From contig JABCPU010000186.1 of assembly GCA_016800925.1 (NCBI GenBank), positions 1 through 64,000 on the forward strand: DNA of 64,000 nucleotides. Reading direction: 5' to 3'. Source of the stretch: Suillus spraguei (Eukaryota > Basidiomycota > Agaricomycetes > Boletales > Suillaceae). Below the pieces are notes generated by a model. The model made no database searches. It worked only from the letters and a program-made list of their open reading frames with translations, and was not told the DNA's origin. Shown here in pieces: positions 3,561 through 18,079 of this stretch. Each line of letters begins with the position of its first letter. The stretch's first letter is position 1. The position numbers and the translations under genes are program-made.

Positions 3561-4241
3561 GGCGTTGAGGGAGGTAGTAGTAGCAGAGGAAGGGTAGCCA
3601 AAGGATTTTTGTATCAACTCCACCTATTATCCACTTATTTAATATATAGAACCTGGTCGAGTATGGGCGATTCGGCCGCCCTGGAGACCCATGCGACCAC
3701 CAACTTGAATTTTCTCTGCCATTTTTGCTCGATGTCAATTGGTGCATGTCGGCAAACGTGTGCTCATTGACACTTCTTCTACTTCGTATGGCAAGTCACC
3801 GCCAGGGCAAGTTTGTACTCTGTCGCCCAAGATGTCTGTCATAGGCATTGCTAGATTCAGTACAAATCAAGATGCTTACCGCCTTTAGGACGTACTTGTC
3901 GCTCGTATTGGGCCCTCACTGCGGCGTTACTGTGTGGTGAATTCAAATCAGTTGATGCAAGTGTGTAAACAGAATTTCTTTTCCTGTAAGCTCAAACGTG
4001 AAGCGGTTTCGTTAAGTAGTGCTTAACGAAACAACTTCACGTTTGAGCTCACCTGGTTCGATAAAAAGTAACTTGTAGCAGTCATATTGGCTGTTATAGA
4101 TGTACTACTGCCGTTCTTGCTACTTCCTTGCTTCTTGGAACTATACAGCGATTCACCTTCGCCACTCAAGCCACCGTTATGGTTATGTAACCATCATTTT
4201 GCACACTACTGTATAGTTTCGACACTAGCTTCAAGCCCATT
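3561..4241. other. intergenic region between the MFS gene and the Plavaka element
   Basis: No convincing gene is visible apart from the possible upstream exon of the MFS transporter at 3628-3722. The stretch contains a long hairpin at 3986-4052, listed separately. Confidence 0.5.
3986..4052. repeat. long imperfect inverted repeat (hairpin)
   Basis: Two arms of about 31 nt (3986-4016 and 4022-4052) are reverse complements apart from about three mismatches, with a loop of about 5 nt. Each arm contains CTCAAACGTGAAG followed by GTTTCGTTAAG or its complement. It could be a foldback/MITE remnant or the end of an element. No target-site duplication was recognised. Confidence 0.8.
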
Positions 4242-4266
4242 ACATCAGGAAAACATCGAGTTCCTT
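4242..4266 (+). repeat. left terminal inverted repeat of the Plavaka element
   Basis: These 25 nt are an exact reverse complement of 12977-13001. The sequence begins ACATCAGGAAAACATCGAG and runs into the AAGG-rich subterminal array. Confidence 0.85.
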
Positions 4267-4510
4267 AAACGCTCCTTATTTGCCTTAATTTGCTCAATAA
4301 GGAACTTTTAAGGCCGTTTTTCGTCCTTAAATTAAGGAGACTAAGGAGATCCATTTCCTTAAACTAAGGAAATAAGGAGGATAAGGAGCGGATAAGGCGG
4401 TCAAGGCATGTTATTATTTCAATAGACACAGAATAATCCAAGTACGCTAAGGCGAAAATAAGGACGTCAACGAGTTCAAGGCGGTCAAGGCGTTCAAGGC
4501 GTGCTATGAA
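4258..4510 (+). repeat. left subterminal AAGGCG/AAGGAG motif array
   Basis: About twenty copies of AAGGAG, AAGGCG, AAGGAA or their complements occur in 250 bp, as clusters such as GTCAAGGCG, TAAGGAGG and TTCAAGGCG in both orientations. A similar array lies inside the right end. Subterminal repeats like this are typical transposase-binding sites in DNA transposons; that role is inferred here. Confidence 0.7.
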
Positions 4511-4587
4511 AATGACAAAAAATATTAAAAACGGTGTAGGACAGCAATCAACGAGAGCAGAGATTGAAGTGAAACGATACGAGGCTT

Positions 4588-6908
4588 TCAGATACGGATA
4601 CGTGTACGTGGATTCACGGGGGTTTCTCCATCGAGAATAGTAGACTCGTCCTTGCGGCGAGCACGCTTCATGTACGCCTGAGATCGTTCCACAATTTCTT
4701 TGATGCGGTCGAAGGGCAGCTCCTCGATTCGTTCCATGTACGCGAGTGTATCAGTCTCCCAATTACCCGCAGAAAAAGCAGTGCCTGTGTTACTCATTTT
4801 GTTTGTAGACTGATTGAGAGTCAACGCGATCTTGTGTTTCCCGTGGTCCAAAGTATCTTCCACAATCAGGTTGTCACGAGCTAAAATAAGTGCACGCTTG
4901 GCCTGCAAATGAAAGTTAGCAAGTTTTGTAAAGGCGCTGCAAAACTCACGGCTGCAGTGGTCAGTGCAAGGGCCGTTTGATATCCAGGTAAGCCGAAGTC
5001 GAGCGAGTCAATTATCTGGCGTCCTTGGGTGGCATTGAGTTGAACAGCGAAGATGCGCAAGATGAATTCCGATAAAAAAGCTCCAGGTGAGTCTTCGTTA
5101 TCTGGATCTTCATATACAAAGCGTGAATCTTCAAGTTGATACTCGGCATAGTCTTTGCGTGCCTCCTTGGTCTTGAATTCGTCCGTGGAGGCGAAAAACG
5201 CCATGAGAATTGTGATAGCGGTGGAACCGAAGTTGCCTCTCCATTCAGAGATCCTTTGGCATACCTGCCAACATAGTTGTCAGCTAGAAGTACCAGAATA
5301 CAATTTACTTATGACGTTGAAGGCGAGATTACAGCCATCATCATTCCTAAAGTCTCCAGGCTGCTTACACACCGCCATGAATATATCCTCGAGAACGTCT
5401 GAGAGTTTCTCATCGGGGATGGTCCATGGATAGCTGTTGTTGCCGACCCAGTACATGACCGTTGGAATAAATATGGAACGAAAGCTGAGATTCTGAACAG
5501 CGCTGGGCAAGTGAGAATTCTTTGGCTTTTCTTTCTTCAGATTGAGTATCGTATGTGGCGCACATCCATTTCCGGTTTTGATGAACTTGGATGTTGGACC
5601 ATCCATCGTGGTATCCATGACGCTAACTGACATCTGCATAGGAATTTGTCAGCATTGTCAGGCGACCTGAGCAAATTCTCCATACAGAGCTTGTGAGTCG
5701 ACTGCTTGAGACCTATAAATCCATGATAGTGGTGAGCGATTCATCTATCTCACAGGACCCACCAGTACTTACCTCAATAATGTCGCCCTGCTGATCCGTC
5801 ATCTCAACATCCTCATCCTCATCCTCAGCCACACCCTCATCCTTGTCCGGAATATATTCGTCGGCATCGTCTTCTTCCATTTCACACGGCTCTTCGGGTT
5901 TGAGGTCATCCAACGAGGTCGTGGACAAGGTACACTTCCGTCCCCTCGTGGCATCATCAATAGTCTCAATCATACGCACGACACCCTGCATTGATTTTAG
6001 CATTCCCCATTCACAATCATGAAGTCACTCACCTGACTACCCCGACTCACAGTTATGCTCTCATCATGATCTTCAGGTAGGTTTTTGTCTTCGGATATGT
6101 CCGCATCCCTGCTTGCAATCACTAAAAACTGTTAGCAATGTGTGCAGACATGAAACTGAACCTACCACTGGCACGTGCACTTGGTGGCGCAGATGGCTTC
6201 CGTTGGGACTTCGATGCCACGCTTTTAGCCCACTTCCCCACTTCCACCTCCTCTGTCGATATGGCGTGTTCAGATCCCCTACATTGCAGTGAGTGAAATA
6301 TGTCGAAGTAATAAAGAGTCAGCTCTGATAAGAGTAACATCGCAGTTAAGACGAACTTACAACGACCTTCGATTTTTCCCACTGTCACTGCCCCTGCCCA
6401 CGCTTAGTACAACGCACGTTGTAGATGATGTACCATTGTTGGACACCTTTCGATTGGCGTTGACACCATCCTTGAAGGTGAGTTTCAAGCCTGGATATTT
6501 CTTCTTTGGGGCATCAGTGCTTTTGGACACTAGTTTTGCCCCAACAGCTGTATCAATGTCAAAGAACTGGTAAGTCTTGCAACAGCATTGTATTGCATAA
6601 GGCTTACGCGTATTGTTGGGGTTTGCAGTTGGCGCTGCCTTGGTCACTGGGCGCGGCTTAGGCTTTGGTCTGACAAGGCGTCCTGGGCCAGCACGTTGAG
6701 CCGTCTGCTCAACAGCCATAGCATCTTCCGTTGCAGCGACCTTCTTTTGAGCATCTTCTAAGGCGGTTGCCTTGGCTGATTTCTCTGCTGACGCCTTTTT
6801 TATTTCAGCTGCAAGTACATCCTTTGGACGTGCTACGCGACTCGCTTCAAGAACTATCTGTCCAGGATGTTTGTTAGCATTCCCTGGGCGCGTTGCAGGT
6901 CGAGCCAT
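4588..6908 (-). CDS. Plavaka-associated companion protein of unknown function, multi-exon
   Basis: A reverse-strand, multi-exon gene divergent from the transposase and inside the same terminal repeats. It starts at MARPATRPGN (6908) and ends PVNPRTRIRI. The N-terminal part (residues about 25-70) is Ala/Lys/Glu-rich and probably a coiled coil. It is followed by a basic Pro/Lys stretch, a Ser/Pro-rich linker, and a strongly acidic segment of about 30 residues (5775-5905). The C-terminal half looks globular: it includes a block around VMYWVGNNSYPWTIPDEKLSDV and GALGL-type helical sequence (GFQTALALTTAAV-like), and ends in a block with AFSAGNWETDTLAYMERIEELP. I recognise this C-terminal pattern from hypothetical proteins of Agaricomycetes that recur near Plavaka transposases, but I know no assigned function. 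Exon joins are approximate. It could assist transposition or be a captured gene. Confidence 0.65.
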
Positions 6909-7124
6909 GGTGAGATCTAGGACAAGCTGTTGGAGGAATGCTGGTAGCAAGGTGTTGAAAGAATATGGATGCTAGCAAAAGGTGGCAACGAACGGGTGAA
7001 GTTATATTTTTTTTCGATTGAGCATGTCATAATTTCTGATTCACACACTTAGTATTAGTCTAGTCTGCATTCTACGTATTCTGCTCCCTGGTATCCATCT
7101 CACTGCGACTACCCACTGTCCAAC

Positions 7125-10100
7125 ATGGCCCCAGCTGTCACCAGGCTCGTTTGTCGGTTTCCAAACTGCAATCGGGTCTTCAAAAACAAGTCTGGCCTCA
7201 CTCAGCACACACATGTGAAGCATGGTACCCCACAAATACAAAACCTCAATCGCACAGCTCCACTCGCAGGTCCCGGATTTATACCTCCACGGAGTCGTTC
7301 TCCCACTCCGGCAGGTGTTATCGATGACAATATTTATGATGACCCAGCTGGCGACCAGGGTTTTGTACCTGAGGAAGGTACTTGGGCGGATATGGGGCGC
7401 TTATTGCGTACTTTCCATCCGCACCTCACAGGTGGGCGTTTTTAAGGAGTTCATATTACTGTTACTCATTTTTTGTCTTAGGACTCAAATGCGATGCTAA
7501 TGGGGCATTTATTGACCAGGATGCACCCCCGCCACCTCACACGGATGCCCCCCCAACCAATTGGACGCCTTATGACAATCGTGTTGAATTTGAGACGGCG
7601 GAATTCTTATTCACGCGCAATCAAATGTCTGCAAGGCAGATTGATACACTTCTCGACTTGTGGGCCGCGACTCTCATAAAGCACAATGACGCCCCCCCAT
7701 TTGCAAACCATAGGGACATGTACGCTACAATTGATGCAACACCACTCGGCGATACCCCTTGGAAGAGCTTTACGTTGTGCTACAACAGAGCCAAACCCGA
7801 ACAAGACGTACCGCCGTGGATGGATGGACAATATGATGTCTGGTATAGAGATCCATTGGAGATGACGCGCGGCATTTTGGCAAACTGTGATTTCGATGGA
7901 GGAATTGAGTATTCACCCTACCGCGATTATACTACCGAGGACAAACAATATTGGAAGAACTTTATGTCTGGTGACTGGGCGTGGAATCAGGCAGTACATC
8001 TCTTTCATATTTACATTTTTGGCATACTAACAATCATCTCAAGGATGTTATCGCTCAAAATGAGGAGAATCATGGTTCGACATTTGTACCATTGATTATC
8101 GGCAGTGATAAGACTGTTGTTTCTGTCGCTACTGGTCAGACCGAATACCACCCACTCTATCTCTCAATCGGGAACATTTACAATAGCGTACGACGGGCAC
8201 ATCGCAATGGTGTTGTGCTCATTGGATTTCTTGCGATACCGAAATGTAGGTGCTTGTTATTCTCAATGGATCACTGTATCATAACCTTCATTTGTCTAGC
8301 TACGAAGGAACATAATGACGACATCAAATACAGAAATTTTCGACGGCAGCTATTCCAGCGCTCCCTTGCGAAGATTTTCGAGTCTGTGAAACCTTTCATG
8401 GAAAATTTCGATGTCACACGCTTTCCGGATGGCCACTATCGACGAACGGTGTACAGCTTGGGCCCTTACATAGCGGACTATCCAGAACAGATACTTCTCT
8501 CTGGCGTCGTGCAGAACTGGTGTCCACGGTGTGTCATCAAACTTTGTTTTGCTTTTTAACGACTTATTTATTATCAAAATAGGTGTCTAGGAAATAGGAA
8601 GGACCTTGACGGCTGTCATATACCATACTTCTAATCTCAGATCCGATCATATCCATCCAGATCCAATCGTTTCCATATCCGTCCGGTCCACAGATCCTGT
8701 CCGGACACCCATCCGAATAACTCACTTCTCGCACCTTAACTCCCTGGTGAACATCTGTGTCTATCTCCTTTCGTCATTTCTCCTACTACCGGTACTCCGG
8801 CTGTTTATATTTCCGTCCTGTGTTACTGATCCGTTTCCTGTGTTCATTTCCGATTCATGCTTACTGATCCGCTGTGCAATAACTAATAGACTTCCGTTAC
8901 ACTTCGTACATAGCCCTCGGTCCCGGACTTGCTGATTATCCGTCTTAGATACTTACTGTATATAAACCACTTGTAGATCTCCGTAGAACCTTAGTTCGAA
9001 TATCATCTTAGATTCTAATCATTCTGCCTTCTCCGGACTTAAAGCCACTCTCCGCTTTAAAGTCACCTTCCGAGACTTAGGATTGATTCCTATAGTCTAT
9101 ACCTCCGACTCTATCTTTGGATAGTCCATCTCTGTTAGTTTCTAGTTAGGAACTCATTCCGAAACTAGCCTCAATCTCTGTCCTCCCCTTACGTTCCGAA
9201 TAACCTTCGGACGTATCATATCCAACACCTTCAGACACCCGGATCCGTCACGCAACTCCTCCCGGGTCTTCGGACGAATAACTCCTCCCTGAAATAAGGG
9301 GCATTACTCGAGAAAGGGGCACAGTGTACGAACTGAGGCCAAAGCCCTTCGGATCTCTCTACCCTTGAGTACAGTCTTAACAACGGCGCTCAACCATGTC
9401 TCCATCGACGCAAAGCACATACCGAGTTGCTCGTCGAACAACTCACATACAAACAGGCTTGGGAACAGTATGGCATCATTGCCGATCTCGTTGTAAGTTG
9501 CTCGCTGAAACTCGCTAGGTCCAATCTCACCTTTTTGCTTTTCTAGCCATTTACAAATGACTTTCCTCGAGCGGACATCCACGAGCTCCTATCTCCGGAT
9601 ATCTTGCATCAAATAATCAAGGGAACTTTCAAGGATCATCTGGTTGATTGGGTGGGAGAGTATCTTCTGGTCACACACGGTACCTGTCATGTGGCTGAGA
9701 TAATGGATGACATTGACCGCAGGTACGCAAATCTATGATGTTTTGCTGATAACTACTAATAACATACAGGATAGCAGCAGTTGCCCCATTCGCTGGGTTG
9801 CGACGCTTTCCTGATGGGCGAGGTTTTCGGCAGTGGACGGGTGACGACTCAAAGGCATTAATGAAGGTATGCTGTGTATTCCGTTCCAAACAACATGTGA
9901 GCTGACTCGTATTTAGGTCTATCTAGCTGCAATTGAAGGTCATGTTCCTCAAGATGTGGTGCGCACATTCAGTGCATTTCTAGAATTTTGCTACATTGTG
10001 AGGCGCGAGGCTCTCACTGAAGATGACCTCGTAAAACTACAAGATGCCCTCGACCGCTTTCACCAATATCGGGAGATCTTCAAGACAACCGGTGTGGTCT

Positions 10101-11306
10101 CGACATTCTCCCTTCTGCGTCAACACTCCCTGTGCCACTACATAGTACTGATTCGACTTTTCGGCGCACCCAACAGCCTTTGCTCTTCAATTACTGAGTC
10201 CAAGCACATCAAGGCAGTTAAAGAACCTTGGCGCCGATCTAGCAGGTTTAACGCACTCGGACAAATGCTACTAACAAATCAACGCATCAACAAACTTGCA
10301 GCCGCTCGCGTAGATTTTGAGGCACGTGGTATGCTTCGTGGCTCTTGTCTGTCCAATGCTTTGGGAGAACTCAGGAGATGTACGTGATCTTTCGCTGACG
10401 ATGTAGCCCTTCTCATATCCCCAATAGGTCAGAATATTCCTGCAGACGACGACTTAGAACTGGATGACGACACGGAGGCTAATATGGCGCAAGAAGGCCA
10501 TCATGGGCGACTGCGTATCCACGAGCCTCAAAATCAATCCATTGAAGTGGATGCTGGTGAGATTATTGATGGACCGACTGTAGAGTCCCATGTTGAGCTT
10601 GCATTAACTCCTCGTATGTTAAACGTTTTGCTCCTGGACCCTTTCTGACAATGAATAGGTTGTGCACGAAATGTTCATGCACTCAGCCTCGAACTCGACC
10701 TTCCACGCCTCCCGTTTATGATTCAGGAATTCATACATGATCAACACTATTCAGACGATCCCAACCCTCCTGAGTTTGATCCGGCAACAGTGCAAGTATT
10801 CCTAGGGAAACTCACCCTCTTTAATTCTGCTGCAGCCTCGTTCCATGCACCCAGTGATCTGAGTGGTACGGGAGGTATGCGTCGCGAGCACATCAGGGCA
10901 ACACCATCGTGGCGCACTGGCGAACCAAGGCATGACTGTATCTTCATCAACATGGGTGTTGACTTCGACTCTCCCATGAATGGACTCGCAGTTGCGCGAG
11001 TCCTTTGCTTTTTCTCATTTAACTATCGGACCTCATACTATCCCTGCGCCATAGTTCATTGGTATTCTTATGTTCACGAAGAACGCGATCCCGACACAGG
11101 CATGTATGTCGTGCGCCGACGACAACTGGTGACGATGTCCCAGACGTCTCAATTATTCACATCATTGTATCTTTCGCGCTGCCCATCTCATTCCAGTCTA
11201 TGGCCCGGACTTTATCCCAAAAATAAGTCCACACGACTCATACGACATGTTCAACTCCTACTATGTCAACAGATATGCTGATCACCATGCTTTTGAAATA
11301 GCGTGA
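7125..11306 (+). pseudogene. Plavaka/KDZ transposase with N-terminal C2H2 zinc finger, split by a solo LTR
   Basis: The product would bind the element's ends and catalyse cut-and-paste transposition. It begins MAPAVTRLVC. An N-terminal C2H2 finger (CRFPNCNRVFKNKSGLTQHTHVKH) is followed in later exons by blocks typical of Plavaka: DTPWKSFTLCY, PPWMDGQYDVWYRDPLE, FVPLIIGSDKTVVSVATGQ, YHPLYLSIGNI, HGTCHVAEIMDDIDRR, SITESKHIKAVKEPWRRSSR, NQRINKLAAARVDF and a last exon ending YADHHAFEIA at 11306. In the KDZ superfamily the acidic catalytic residues lie in the IIGSDKT-type block and further C-terminal. At least eight introns are present. A solo LTR (8614-9382) with a 5-bp duplication interrupts an exon at ACGGC. 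The final exons also need frame changes, so this copy is inactive as read. A second relic of the same family lies at 714-905. Confidence 0.85.
8614..9382 (+). mobile_element. solo LTR, family L1 (copy 1)
   Basis: The 769-bp sequence begins TGTCATATACCATAC and ends GTCTTAACA. It is flanked by a perfect 5-bp duplication, ACGGC (8609-8613 and 9383-9387). It closely matches 16083-16826 and more loosely 36598-38063. No internal retroelement genes are present, so it is a solo LTR left by recombination. It sits inside the Plavaka transposase gene. Confidence 0.95.
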
Positions 11307-11509
11307 TTGTGGTACGTCCTTGCCTCTCATTTTGTCGTCCTTTTGCTAATTAAATACCCTACAGACCCATCTAGATGACAGAATACAACGCGATGCTCGA
11401 CAACCCCGCCCCTACAACAACCCACATTTCCCCACGCAGGTAGGCTCCAAGACCATATCATCTTCATATGGGTTGTGCGGCTTTCCTGGCCTGCCGCCTT
11501 CAACCTCGC

Positions 11510-12260
11510 TGTTGGGTACAACGTGAAGCAGATGGTCACAGCTGGTTCCAAGGGTTCATACATCAACATCTTGCAAATGTCTATCTGTGTTGGGCAGCAA
11601 AGTGTTGAAGGTCGTGAATCCCATTCAGGTTCCATCATCGTACTCTTCCCCATTTCACCAAGGACGACTTCAGCCTGGAGGCATGTGGCTTCGTCAAGAA
11701 CTCATATCTATGAGGGTTGACGCCACAGGAGTTTTTCTTCCATGCCATGGCTGGAAGAGAAGGTCTTATTGATATGGCCGTCAAGAAGGCAGAGACTGGT
11801 ATCATTATGCGAGATTCAAAAACAGGTAAAGCGTTGCAATTGCGTGATTTCACATGAAATGCATCTTCTTGGACAGGTCGTCTCATCAAGGCATTGGAGG
11901 ACGTGATGGTACACTATGATGGCACTGTTCGCAACTCGCTTGGAGACCTCATCCAGTTCATGTATGGTGAAGACGGTATGGACGGTGCATTCATCAAACG
12001 TCAGAAGATTGAGACGTTTGGCCTTGACAATGAAGCCTTTGAGCACAACTATCGCGTTGATGTCACGGATTCTTGCCTAATACCCTCCAGATTGGCGTTG
12101 ATGATAGCTCTCTGGAGCTGCAGATGAAGTTGGACGAAGAATACAACGAGCTTTTGAACGACCGCCGTCTTCTACGACAATTCATATTTCCCCAGGCAGA
12201 CGGCCTTAATCCTCACTATTATACACTTGTACAAAACTCACTCTACGCTCAAGCCACACG
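11510..12260 (+). pseudogene. RPB1 (fragment): captured fragment of RPB1, the largest subunit of RNA polymerase II
   Basis: This segment encodes a stretch of the central RPB1 core. It reads [16 protein letters not shown], then VGQQSVEG, then (after a 1-nt loss near 11612) [34 protein letters not shown], an intron (about 11825-11880), [52 protein letters not shown] sequence and DRRLLRQFIFPQADGLNPHY. In RPB1 these blocks occur in exactly this order, from the funnel/bridge-helix region onwards. The intron shows that genomic DNA was captured. A TGA stop replaces the Arg of YLRG at about 11716. Both flanks lie inside the Plavaka terminal repeats. The fragment cannot encode a working polymerase subunit. 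How far the copy extends past 12260 is unclear. Confidence 0.9.
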
Positions 12261-12770
12261 TTCTGTCTCGATTCCTGCTCAAATGATAGGTAAGTTCTCA
12301 TCAAATTTGAGATGTACTCGCACTCACCATGGTCTACAGTCACTCGAGGCTCGAGCAATGCGCTCTGTTTCGATTCCTTCAAAAACGGCCCCCCGCCCTC
12401 TTCAAGAACTTGAAGCACAATAATCCCTCTCCCACTCTTGCCTTCATCTCGTTTGCTCTTGCCTCTGCTTCTTCTGCTCTCGCCTCCGCTTCTTCTGCCC
12501 TTGCCTCAGCTCTGATTGCAGCCTCCGCCCAGACAGCCACATCTCCCCACTTGCACGTCTTTCATTGCAGTTGCACGCGAGATCTTGGAGCCATCTGATT
12601 CACTAGCACCTGGTAAGCAATGTTTGACGCGACGATTATCGATTAAAACTTACTATGATGTTTTTTTCTTAGATTTTGTAGATTTCTGTGATTGATGTGT
12701 AGATGACGAGCGAGTTGTTGTCGGCGTGTTGCGCGTCTATCAGTGCTTATTGAAGTAAGCACTAACATAA
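12261..12770 (+). other. Ala/Ser-rich remnant and two related short repeats at the 3' side of the Plavaka element
   Basis: Two similar segments (about 12252-12288 and 12348-12390, both with TCTGTYTCGATTCCT) are separated by an intron-like stretch. They are followed by a low-complexity run encoding Ala/Ser repeats (12455-12535) and a short coding-like tail, REILEPSDSLAP. No function can be assigned. Confidence 0.4.
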
Positions 12771-12784
12771 TACATAACATGTTT

Positions 12785-12985
12785 TTTTTTGGCGCTCAGC
12801 AGGCGCCTTATTTTACTTATTTTACTTTCAAAAATACAACTGCCTTTGATGCCTTAACCGCCTTGAAATGACTTCACTCCTTAAAATACATTTCGCTAAG
12901 GAACACACTAGTTCCTTATTCTCCTTAGCAGCCTTAGAATTAAATTTAAGGAACTTTAAGTAAGCTAAGGACCGAAAAGGAACTC
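12785..12985 (-). repeat. right subterminal AAGG motif array
   Basis: This stretch contains many CCTTA, GCCTT and CTCCTT motifs and their complements. It mirrors the left array at 4258-4510 and lies directly inside the right terminal repeat. Confidence 0.65.
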
Positions 12986-13001
12986 GATGTTTTCCTGATG
13001 T
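12977..13001 (-). repeat. right terminal inverted repeat of the Plavaka element
   Basis: Exact reverse complement of 4242-4266; on the plus strand it ends CGATGTTTTCCTGATGT. Confidence 0.85.
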
Positions 13002-14503
13002 CGTCCTGACTTATTTCAAGTATCTTCACCTATCAAAGTTGATGTCTTTCAATCCATGCTTGAAGCTGCACATCATCCAAATCCCTCGTTCTACCTCTCT
13101 GTTTGTGCAGGGCTCCGAGAAGGTTTCTGGCCTTGGGCCGATACACATTATGGGGATTATCCCTCAACATGGGAAGAGCCTAATCCTGTTCCTTCCACTA
13201 AAATTGAGCGTGCTTTTCTTCGGCTTCAAATCGAGAAGGAAGTTCAAGTTGGATGATATTCATCTAACTTTGGGCCAGACTTACTCCTGGGAATGTATTC
13301 AATGCCAATTCATGCAGTCCCTAAGGATGGAGGAAAATTTCGGCTCGTCACAAACCATAGTGCAGGAAATTATTCACTTAACTCAATGATTGTCAAAGAA
13401 GACATAGCTGGGGTAACATTGGATAATGTCCAGCATTTGGGAAATGCGCTGCGTCAGTTCAGGTTTCTGGAGGGGGATGGTCCTCTGGTAATCTGGAAGG
13501 TGGATGTCTCCGAAGCTTACCAACACATGCCAATGCATCCATTATGGCAAGTTAAGCAAATTGTTTCGTTTGAAGGCTGTCGACACGTTGATTGGTCAAA
13601 TGTCTTCGGAGGAAGAGCTTCTCAGCAAATCTTCCATGCTTTCATGTCTTTGGTCATGTGGCTAGCAGTCTTTGTGCAGCTCATCCTTGCCTATATTTAT
13701 GTGGATGATTCATTCTCATATGCCAGACTTGGCAACTATTCATTCTATGAAAAATACCAAAAAGATTTGCCATCTGATATGGTTAAACTCCTCCGACTTT
13801 GGGATGAATTAGGCATACCACACGAGGAGAAAAAGCAAATTTTTGGTTCACCCTTACCAGTCATTGGTTTCAATGTTGATCCTCAACTAATGTGGGTAAC
13901 CCTCCGAGAAGAATTGAAAGCTCGCCTAGTCTCTGAGCTTAGAACCTTCGCTTGTCACCAGCAGAGACGTACTTTGTGGGAATGTGAGCACATTGCAGGG
14001 TCTTTGAATTGGGCCCTTAATGTTGTGCCTCTCCTGCGACCTGGTCTAGCTGCATTGTATCGCAAAATGGAGGGTAAAAGTCAAACAAAGGCTCTTGTTT
14101 GGCTCAACCGAAGTATAGTTGACGAAATCCTATGGGTAGCAGAGCATCTTGAGCATTCAGATGGAATTTACCTTCTAAAGTCAGTTTCTTGGAACTCAAC
14201 TGATGTGGCATTGGCATGAAATGTCTTGTGAGTGTACTGTGATGCTTCAGGCGTCGGCTTAGGGTTTTGGTATCCATCTTTGAAGCTCGGCTTTCAAGCA
14301 TCCCTTTCACTGCGGCAAGATCCTGATATTTTCTACCATGAAGCATTATGTGTTGCTTCGGCAATCCATGATTCACTTTCTCGGCTTCCATCAGATCACC
14401 GACTGGCCATCTTTACTGACAGCCTTAACACTGTGGCAATTTTCAACTCACTGGCCATGGGAGCTCCATACAATCATCTCCTCAGATTTGTTGTCGACCT
14501 CGT

Positions 14504-15942: not shown

Positions 15943-16082
15943 TCGTTCTTGCTACATCTGTTGATTTTCGTGTCTTCCACATCTCTGGTGAAAGGAATAC
16001 AGTTTCTGATCACTTGTGATGTAATCGTGAACAAGAAGCTTTAGAATGTGTTCCTGGTTTACGGATTCTACCTTTTGAACCC

Positions 16083-16826
16083 TGTCATATACCATACTTC
16101 TGATCCCAGATCTGACCATATCCGATCCGATCCGATCAATTCTATTTCTGTCTGGTCCACAGATCCTGTCCGGATCGCTCATCCAATGTGCTCACTTCTT
16201 GCACTCTATCTCCCTTGTGTATATCTGCGTCTATCTCCTTTCATCACTCATCCTGTTTCCGGTACTCCGGCTGTATATAATTCCATCCTGTGTCACTGAT
16301 CCATTACCTGTGTTTCATTTCCAATTCATGCTTACTGATCCGCTGCGCATTAACTAATAGACTTCCGTTACACTTCATACATAGCCCTCAGTCCCGGACT
16401 TGTTGATTATCTGTCTTAGATACTTACCGTATATAAACCACTTGTAGATCTCCGTAGAACCTCAGTTCAAATATCATCTTAGATTCTGCTCATTCTGTTT
16501 CCTCCGGACTTAAGACACTTTCCACTCTAAGTCATCTTCCAAGACTTAGGATTGATTCCTTTAGTCTATATCTCTGACTCTATCTTTGGATAGTCTACCT
16601 CTGTCAGTTTCTAGTTAGGAACCCATTCCGAAGCTAGCCTTAATCCTCTTTCCATCCCTACACTCCAGATAACCTTCGGATGTCCGGATCCACCACGCAA
16701 CTCCTTCCGGATCTTCGGACATATATCTCCTCTCTGAAATAAGGGGCATTACTCGACAAGGGGCACAGTGCACAAACTGAGGCCAAAGCTCTTCAGATCT
16801 TTCACCCCTTGAGTATGGTCTTAACA
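16083..16826 (+). mobile_element. solo LTR, family L1 (copy 2)
   Basis: The 744-bp sequence begins TGTCATATACCATAC and ends GTCTTAACA, with a perfect 5-bp duplication AACCC (16078-16082 and 16827-16831). It interrupts the YR retrotransposon just after PFEP of the polyprotein. Confidence 0.95.
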
Positions 16827-18079
16827 AACCCCCTCAGAATGCACTGGGGGCTGCAAAAAATGATTCCAGGACTTCAACGGGCTAAGCAACCGGTGCGGGA
16901 AGCTTGGCGATGGAACATCTCATTCACAAGCATTCTATCAATTTGGGGATGGCACTTGAACACTCAACAAATCATGCATACACGTCGGCATTAAACTCCT
17001 ATCTAACTTTCTGTGATCTTCATCATTTTCCCATTGAACCAACACCAGACACACTCTCATTCTATGTCACTTTCATGGCAACTCATGTCAACCCTCATTC
17101 AGTTGACAATTACCTTTTGGGGATTTGTAGTCTTCTAGAGGAATTTTTCCCCTCAGTACGCTCAGTCCGTTCGTCTTGCCTGGTTGCTTGTACGTTAAGA
17201 GGAGCGAAGCATCATTTTGGAACTCCTGTGAATTGTAAACTTCCATTGACTCGAGCTGATCTAGCTCGTGTCATGGGTAGTTTGCAGAATTTATCACATG
17301 ATGACAAACTTTTTATAACCTTGCTTCTCAATGGTTTCCATGGGCTGTTACGACTAGGAGAGCTAGTATGGCCGGACAAATGTGATCTCCAATTTCATCG
17401 AAAATTAACACTTCGGACCTCTGTCATTTCTGATGCCAACAAGCATTCATTCGTAATTCCATCTCATAAAACAGATCGTCATTTTGAAGGCTGTACTATT
17501 GTCATTCAGAAATCGCTCAGTCTTCCTGATCCTCACCACACTTTTGTTTCTTACCTGGAATCTCATGACGGGCTCTTTCCATTTCACTTAACATTGTGGT
17601 TGTGCAGCAATGGGATGGTCCCTACCAGATCGTGGTTCATTGGAAGATTATGACACTTCTTTCCGACTTCTATTGCAGGACACTCATTACGAGCAGGAGG
17701 AGCTACTTTGCTTGCAGTGGGTGGAGTGTCTGCTATGGAAATTCAAGCTATTGAAAGATGGTCTTCGGAATCTTTTTGAATTTATATTCGAAATTTTTTT
17801 ACTGTACTACATGCTCTTATCTTTAATGGTCGGTCCGCGCACAATGGCTGTGATCCGTTTGCAGCTGTTGATTAATCTTCTATTGTATTTGTATCTCATA
17901 CATCTCATCATTCTCGAAACTTCTTTATTCTTTTATTTATATTTTTCACCCTCCCTCCCTCCCACAAACACATTTTACAGCTTAATTCACACATTACATG
18001 TATCCCAGACTCATCTTGTGTTTTCTTGTAGTCTCGGTCTCATGTTTTTTGTCCTTAGCTAGTTCTTGGAGTATTCATT

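Follow-up and report, generated by a model that had tools for sequence, protein, structure and literature searches.

The window analysed here, 64,000 nucleotides of Suillus spraguei contig C354, holds sequence resembling the RNA polymerase II gene RPB1 inside what appears to be a DNA transposon. Did the transposon capture part of the gene, from which genome was that part taken, and does it serve its carrier in any way? Element copies and RPB1 matches were sought across the 86.2-Mb S. spraguei assembly.

Structure and classification of the element

A transposon of 8758 bp can be defined at positions 4243..13000 (+ strand) from its terminal inverted repeats, its Plavaka domains and the existence of seven copies with the same ends. 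The left (4243..4266, + strand) and right (12977..13000, - strand) terminal inverted repeats lie within a perfect 25-bp inverted match (4242-4266/12977-13001), in agreement with the first-pass annotation, which had placed the repeats at 4242 and 13001. The genome carries at least seven copies (contigs C354, C1029, C394, C442, C358, C558 and C536), and their termini, CATCAGG..CCTGATG, are identical in all seven. Target-site duplications of 2 bp match in five of them, while the flanks are unequal in the window copy (TA/TC) and in the C394 copy (GT/GA). About 530 bp of internal sequence is missing from the C442 copy.

The transposase gene (7125..11306, + strand, stop at about 11304-11306) contains introns and encodes the Plavaka transposase domain PF18759 in two exons (1.1e-28 and 4.1e-57 in a profile search). 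Its frame is open in the C558 copy once the modelled introns are taken out; in the window copy it is interrupted by a nested 769-bp insertion (8614..9382, no strand assigned) with TG..CA ends and a 5-bp duplication, ACGGC. This insertion, probably a solo LTR, is absent from the other six copies, and a stretch related to it lies at 16082-16827 of the window. A second gene with several exons was delineated from the open reading frames at 4588..6971 (- strand), one of which, 4881-5279, matches DUF6532 (PF20149, 4.1e-07). Just beyond the left end lies a near-perfect palindrome of about 64 bp (3986-4052). A long open frame directly behind the element (13257-14219) looks reverse transcriptase-like by eye, and a retroelement may have been the insertion site.

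PlavakaB elements are described as having ends 5'-CATCA..TGATG-3' and a 2- or 3-bp target-site duplication, and the same source groups Plavaka with CACTA/EnSpm-related elements, away from KDZ (Kojima 2025, PMC12730594). PF18759, the CATCA..TGATG ends of all seven copies and the 2-bp duplications of five agree with this description. PF18758 was absent from the hits of nine element ORFs, and the duplications are 2 bp long as opposed to the 8 bp of Zisupton; of the initial label "Plavaka/KDZ type", Plavaka was retained and KDZ abandoned. A Helitron was ruled out by the terminal inverted repeats, and the nine ORFs contain no Rep or helicase domain. A Pack-TYPE element in the strict sense, that is a non-autonomous one lacking a transposase gene, is likewise excluded by the transposase present, although the element works like one.

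An RPB1 fragment between the termini

The captured RPB1 fragment spans 702 bp at 11518..12219 (+ strand) in gene order, in keeping with the RPB1 blocks in family order originally read at 11510-12260. Aligned with the genome's own RPB1 (L009, contig C1224), as that annotation had proposed, it shows nucleotide similarity in two blocks of 91.0% and 87.6% identity (E 6e-109 and 8e-113), corresponding to positions 3863-4512 of the oriented host locus. There, the host gene is an ORF with a heptad tail, and a single open frame of 1145 amino acids spans the captured region. The fragment has frameshifts and an in-frame stop and is now non-coding: in the window copy its decay amounts to a 1-bp gap, a 13-bp deletion, an in-frame stop and a 78-bp insert. 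This insert (11799..11876, + strand) has GT..AG ends and stands in the place of 12 bp of RPB1 coding sequence; it had been taken for a retained intron, hence as a sign that genomic DNA was taken up. Host RPB1 has no intron at this site, the metagenomic Boletales proteins P0003 and P0007 read through it, and the matches to the insert in the genome are the seven element copies only. Consequently, the insert is no proof of genomic uptake and cannot tell genomic DNA from cDNA.

The fragment begins about 212 bp beyond the transposase stop, somewhat further on than the position "just after" it first reported. Immediately before it, and abutting it, lies an antisense scrap (11439..11516, - strand) that by alignment and reading frame resembles part of an ORF on C300, a host-like gene (81% over 70 bp). 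In the relatives L045 and L046, similarity to the transposase ends at the same point, near 11305, while in L043, which shares the right end, weak similarity is regained from 12239 on, immediately past the RPB1 piece; the captured block thus covers about 11439-12219. No RPB1 match was present in any of the four relatives fetched (L043-L046).

A search of the genome for copies with and without the piece, as first suggested, returned the seven copies already listed, every one of which carries it. A gene part lying between the termini of all seven dispersed copies amounts to transduplication. That the locus is instead a duplicated host segment beside a transposon, a reading with nothing in its favour beyond the RPB1 sequence being present, is refuted by these seven dispersed copies with common termini and by the similarity, which stops inside the termini, 781 bp short of the right one, without reaching the flanks. 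Capture of RPB1 by the Plavaka element is as good as certain.

Independent support comes from S. subalutaceus, in which an annotated protein, P0132, consists of a Plavaka transposase joined at its C-terminal motif to RPB1 residues 1156-1272, 30 of them missing. This RPB1 segment differs from that of the window, yet sits at the corresponding position in a related element. P0132 was the only RPB1 match among the 120 transposase proteins listed and the sole fusion among 103 proteins (candidates of up to about 1716 amino acids) in a search for Plavaka-RPB1 fusions. Its reading frame may be a gene-model artefact; the neighbourhood of RPB1 and Plavaka that it implies supports capture nonetheless.

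Nature of the donor gene

All seven copies differ from host RPB1 at 47 fixed sites, 38 synonymous and 9 non-synonymous, whereas the variants among copies (minority versus majority) comprise 9 synonymous and 26 non-synonymous changes, or 8 and 26 when scored against the host (38:9 versus 9:26, Fisher p 1.1e-6). The contrast persists once CpG-type changes are removed (fixed 27:3 versus among-copy 0:7, p 1.2e-5). The copies therefore mutate without constraint, and the fixed differences would mostly have arisen in a working gene. With dS of 0.32 and dN of 0.018 between fragment and host RPB1, the donor was probably a working gene already diverged (dS about 0.32) from the RPB1 of this host. The capture originally proposed stands, but this substitution pattern speaks against RPB1 of this genome as the parent gene.

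Transitions at CpG account for 28 of the 35 among-copy variants in the fragment, and the CpG observed/expected ratio, 1.13 in host RPB1, drops to 0.71-0.83 in the four element copies measured. Such an excess of CpG transitions with a lowered CpG ratio is the usual trace of methylated DNA, and the copies are probably methylated.

An old, vertical capture from the own RPB1 of the S. spraguei lineage, with the silent differences representing later changes of the host gene, is the alternative that fares best. It would sit well with the wide distribution of element relatives in Suillus, and seven other RPB1 fragments of the genome do fit such an own-lineage model (p 0.09-0.97 over the six fragment groups taken in, F5 being borderline and F3, F6 and F9 left out). 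For the fragment in the window, this model would have 36-49% of the differences synonymous, according to the mutation spectrum assumed, against the 81% seen (p from 6e-10 to, at best, 8e-6 by assumed spectrum). It would moreover need about 35 silent changes in the host gene against only nine amino-acid changes in an unconstrained element, and we consider it unlikely.

Less likely still is a donor that never left the lineage, namely a second, diverged RPB1 formerly present in it, either a paralogue or the allele of a hybrid ancestor, with no movement between species. Such a gene would account for the silent divergence equally well. The assembly contains one full RPB1 only, and we know of no second RPB1 in Suillus.

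Origin of the captured piece

If the donor was a diverged working gene of another species, as we favour, the fixed amino-acid changes might point to that species. Eight of the nine fall at sites where at least 119 of 120 RPB1 proteins have an identical residue. The ninth, E to Q, affects a variable site at which six of the 120 have Q. S. luteus, S. brevipes and the metagenomic P0003 share this residue; it additionally occurs in four more distant proteins of the 120, which weighs against a donor assignment by residue. The host, S. decipiens, S. paluster, S. placidus and Rhizopogon have E at this site. Host and S. decipiens RPB1 differ by 6 residues over the 1145-aa open frame.

The transposase offers a second indication. 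Among 21 transposases compared, drawn from 120 listed of 2287 matches found, the closest from outside the host was that of S. brevipes (488/511 residues), followed by those of S. ampliporus (781/843) and S. subluteus (739/800). Residue Q and the closest outside transposase, two weak signs, thus agree in pointing towards S. luteus and S. brevipes; the donor was probably on that side of the genus, an assignment made at protein level from one residue and a partial S. brevipes protein. Capture in a different Suillus, that is from a foreign donor, appears likely on these sequence comparisons. Among the matches listed, many Suillus species have related transposases at 82-93%, so the lineage of the element could go far back in the genus, and its presence may be vertical. 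The crown of Suillus has been dated to about 40 Ma, or to 71 Ma by another calibration (PMC9009389).

Taken jointly, a transduplicating Plavaka element with a donor in the diverged RPB1 of another Suillus, a later transfer into S. spraguei and subsequent decay of the passenger is the account we hold to be probable. In a "Pack-type" event, a transposase-bearing PlavakaB-like transposon would have acquired two adjoining scraps in the interval that separates its transposase gene from its right end: some 80 bp similar in antisense to a host gene, and roughly 700 bp of RPB1. The latter would derive from a working, well-diverged gene, and the species concerned would most likely be a Suillus on the side of S. 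luteus and S. brevipes. Horizontal transfer or hybridisation would then have brought the element into the S. spraguei lineage, where it reached a copy number of at least seven, its passenger decaying since as non-coding, probably methylated DNA. Interrupted gap repair is one possible route of gene capture by a transposon, and the capture step would have consisted either of this or of an aberrant excision of neighbouring copies. The latter has been proposed for plant Pack-CACTA capture (PMC13317346). No diagnostic trace of the capture step was found at the element.

Comparison with known systems

Pieces of housekeeping genes in transposons are already known from plants and some ascomycetes, and each part of the present case has precedents in histone H3 transduplication, TET/JBP genes in Plavaka and plant Pack-CACTA. 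PlavakaB elements, including those carrying TET/JBP, are described with a like transposase, CATCA..TGATG ends, 2-bp duplications and host-type cargo; their cargo is a dioxygenase gene, whereas the window element holds a dead RPB1 fragment and a second scrap (Kojima 2025, PMC12730594). The ascomycete hAT elements reported to transduplicate histone H3 are likewise fungal DNA transposons that took up and multiplied housekeeping-gene sequence, but they carry a whole H3 with its original in the same genome, while a Plavaka element here carries an internal piece of RPB1 whose donor was probably another species (PMC3538342, PMC6710886). Plant Pack-CACTA and Pack-TYPE elements also hold gene fragments between CACTA-related ends, including two-fragment chimeras; they are described as non-autonomous, unlike the window element, which retains its transposase (PMC13317346, PMC8903248, PMC1947982). 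The Helitrons of Pleurotus ostreatus are basidiomycete transposons too, and an origin in other hosts is suspected for their cargo, but they are rolling-circle elements, unlike Plavaka (PMC4289320). In the literature searched, which covered few subscription papers, we came across no transposon described as carrying an RPB1 fragment, nor any Plavaka element with a dead gene fragment.

What is unusual is a passenger from a barcode gene reporting on a former host, together with the recurrence of RPB1 as cargo. RPB1 is a standard barcode gene of fungi, and for this reason a captured piece of it can name the former host species of a transposon, which is rarely possible otherwise.

RPB1 scraps elsewhere in the genome

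A 6.5 kb RPB1 query returned at least 58 matches, which after merging correspond to the gene, the seven element copies and 23 further loci (C322, two loci; C503; C473; C858; C357; C658; C1256; C1101; C618; C117; C1214; C662; C588; C581; C532, two loci; C504; C202; C814; C512; C388; C79), the one on C79 matching by the RPB1 heptad tail only. By RPB1 segment and shared flanks, these loci fall into about nine groups; flanks were compared for 17 of the 23, and C357, C117, C1214, C581, C814 and C79 were grouped by segment and score alone. Several loci contain partial tandem copies or skip segments of RPB1. Shared amino-acid changes were set aside as proof of a single origin for these other scraps, many being of the CpG-transition type (judged by eye from the codons) and possibly convergent.

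Control queries behaved differently. A 4 kb RPB2 query found no further match in the genome, 8 kb with a polymerase large-subunit-like gene detected the window family only, through its likeness to RPB1, and 9 kb at C411 gave no match. The control L047 (9 kb at C325) gave 26 matches which, besides itself, are all short and lie within 6903-7746: a tRNA-Phe gene accounts for three of them, a further one matches at 72%, and the other 21 are short repeats. A length-share test of RPB1 against the controls yields p = 1.8e-7, a rough value that takes the nine groups as independent and the count in 30 kb as zero; an excess of RPB1 among such scraps is likely, if not secured. The upstream neighbour of RPB1, L036, with 49 matches, many at 65-84%, was not usable as a control. 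Its downstream neighbour, L035, gave 22 matches including itself, 16 of them piled on one place in a 767-aa ORF: 76 bp (L035 5755-5830, in ORF 5554-7857) recur at several loci elsewhere, partly in tandem. The existence of these scraps speaks against RPB1 alone being sampled.

This recurrence within one genome makes the choice between a hot donor and selection directly testable. RPB1 might be no random cargo: several unrelated transposon families of Suillus might repeatedly take it up and be shielded by their likeness to an indispensable gene, a reading that we regard as very doubtful. Were it true, any silencing that spread across the piece would hit RPB1 as well, at a cost to a host that silences such elements hard; the pieces would be hostages, retained by selection acting on the element and moving from one species to the next. 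Marginally less credible is a role of the RPB1 piece against host RPB1, whether by giving rise to small RNAs or by forming a silencing shield. In its favour would be the RPB1 scraps seen at 23 further loci, given that the roughly 30 kb of controls show none clearly, together with the CpG decay suggestive of methylation. Conversely, the among-copy variants show no constraint, and the sampling of the downstream neighbour fits a donor hot spot. A function of the RPB1 piece appears unlikely.

The ORFs near the RPB1 scraps, 20 of which were scanned, include Ty3-type gag, KDZ transposase, TET/JBP-like, DDE_Tnp_4 and DUF6570 matches, such that the contexts of the scraps are mixed. About 2.3 kb from one scrap, an ORF (L018 486-1058) has a weak TET/JBP match under the Pfam cut-off. 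About 1.2 kb from another, an ORF with weak AMP-binding and PP-binding matches (L019 1873-2784) is perhaps another captured gene piece.
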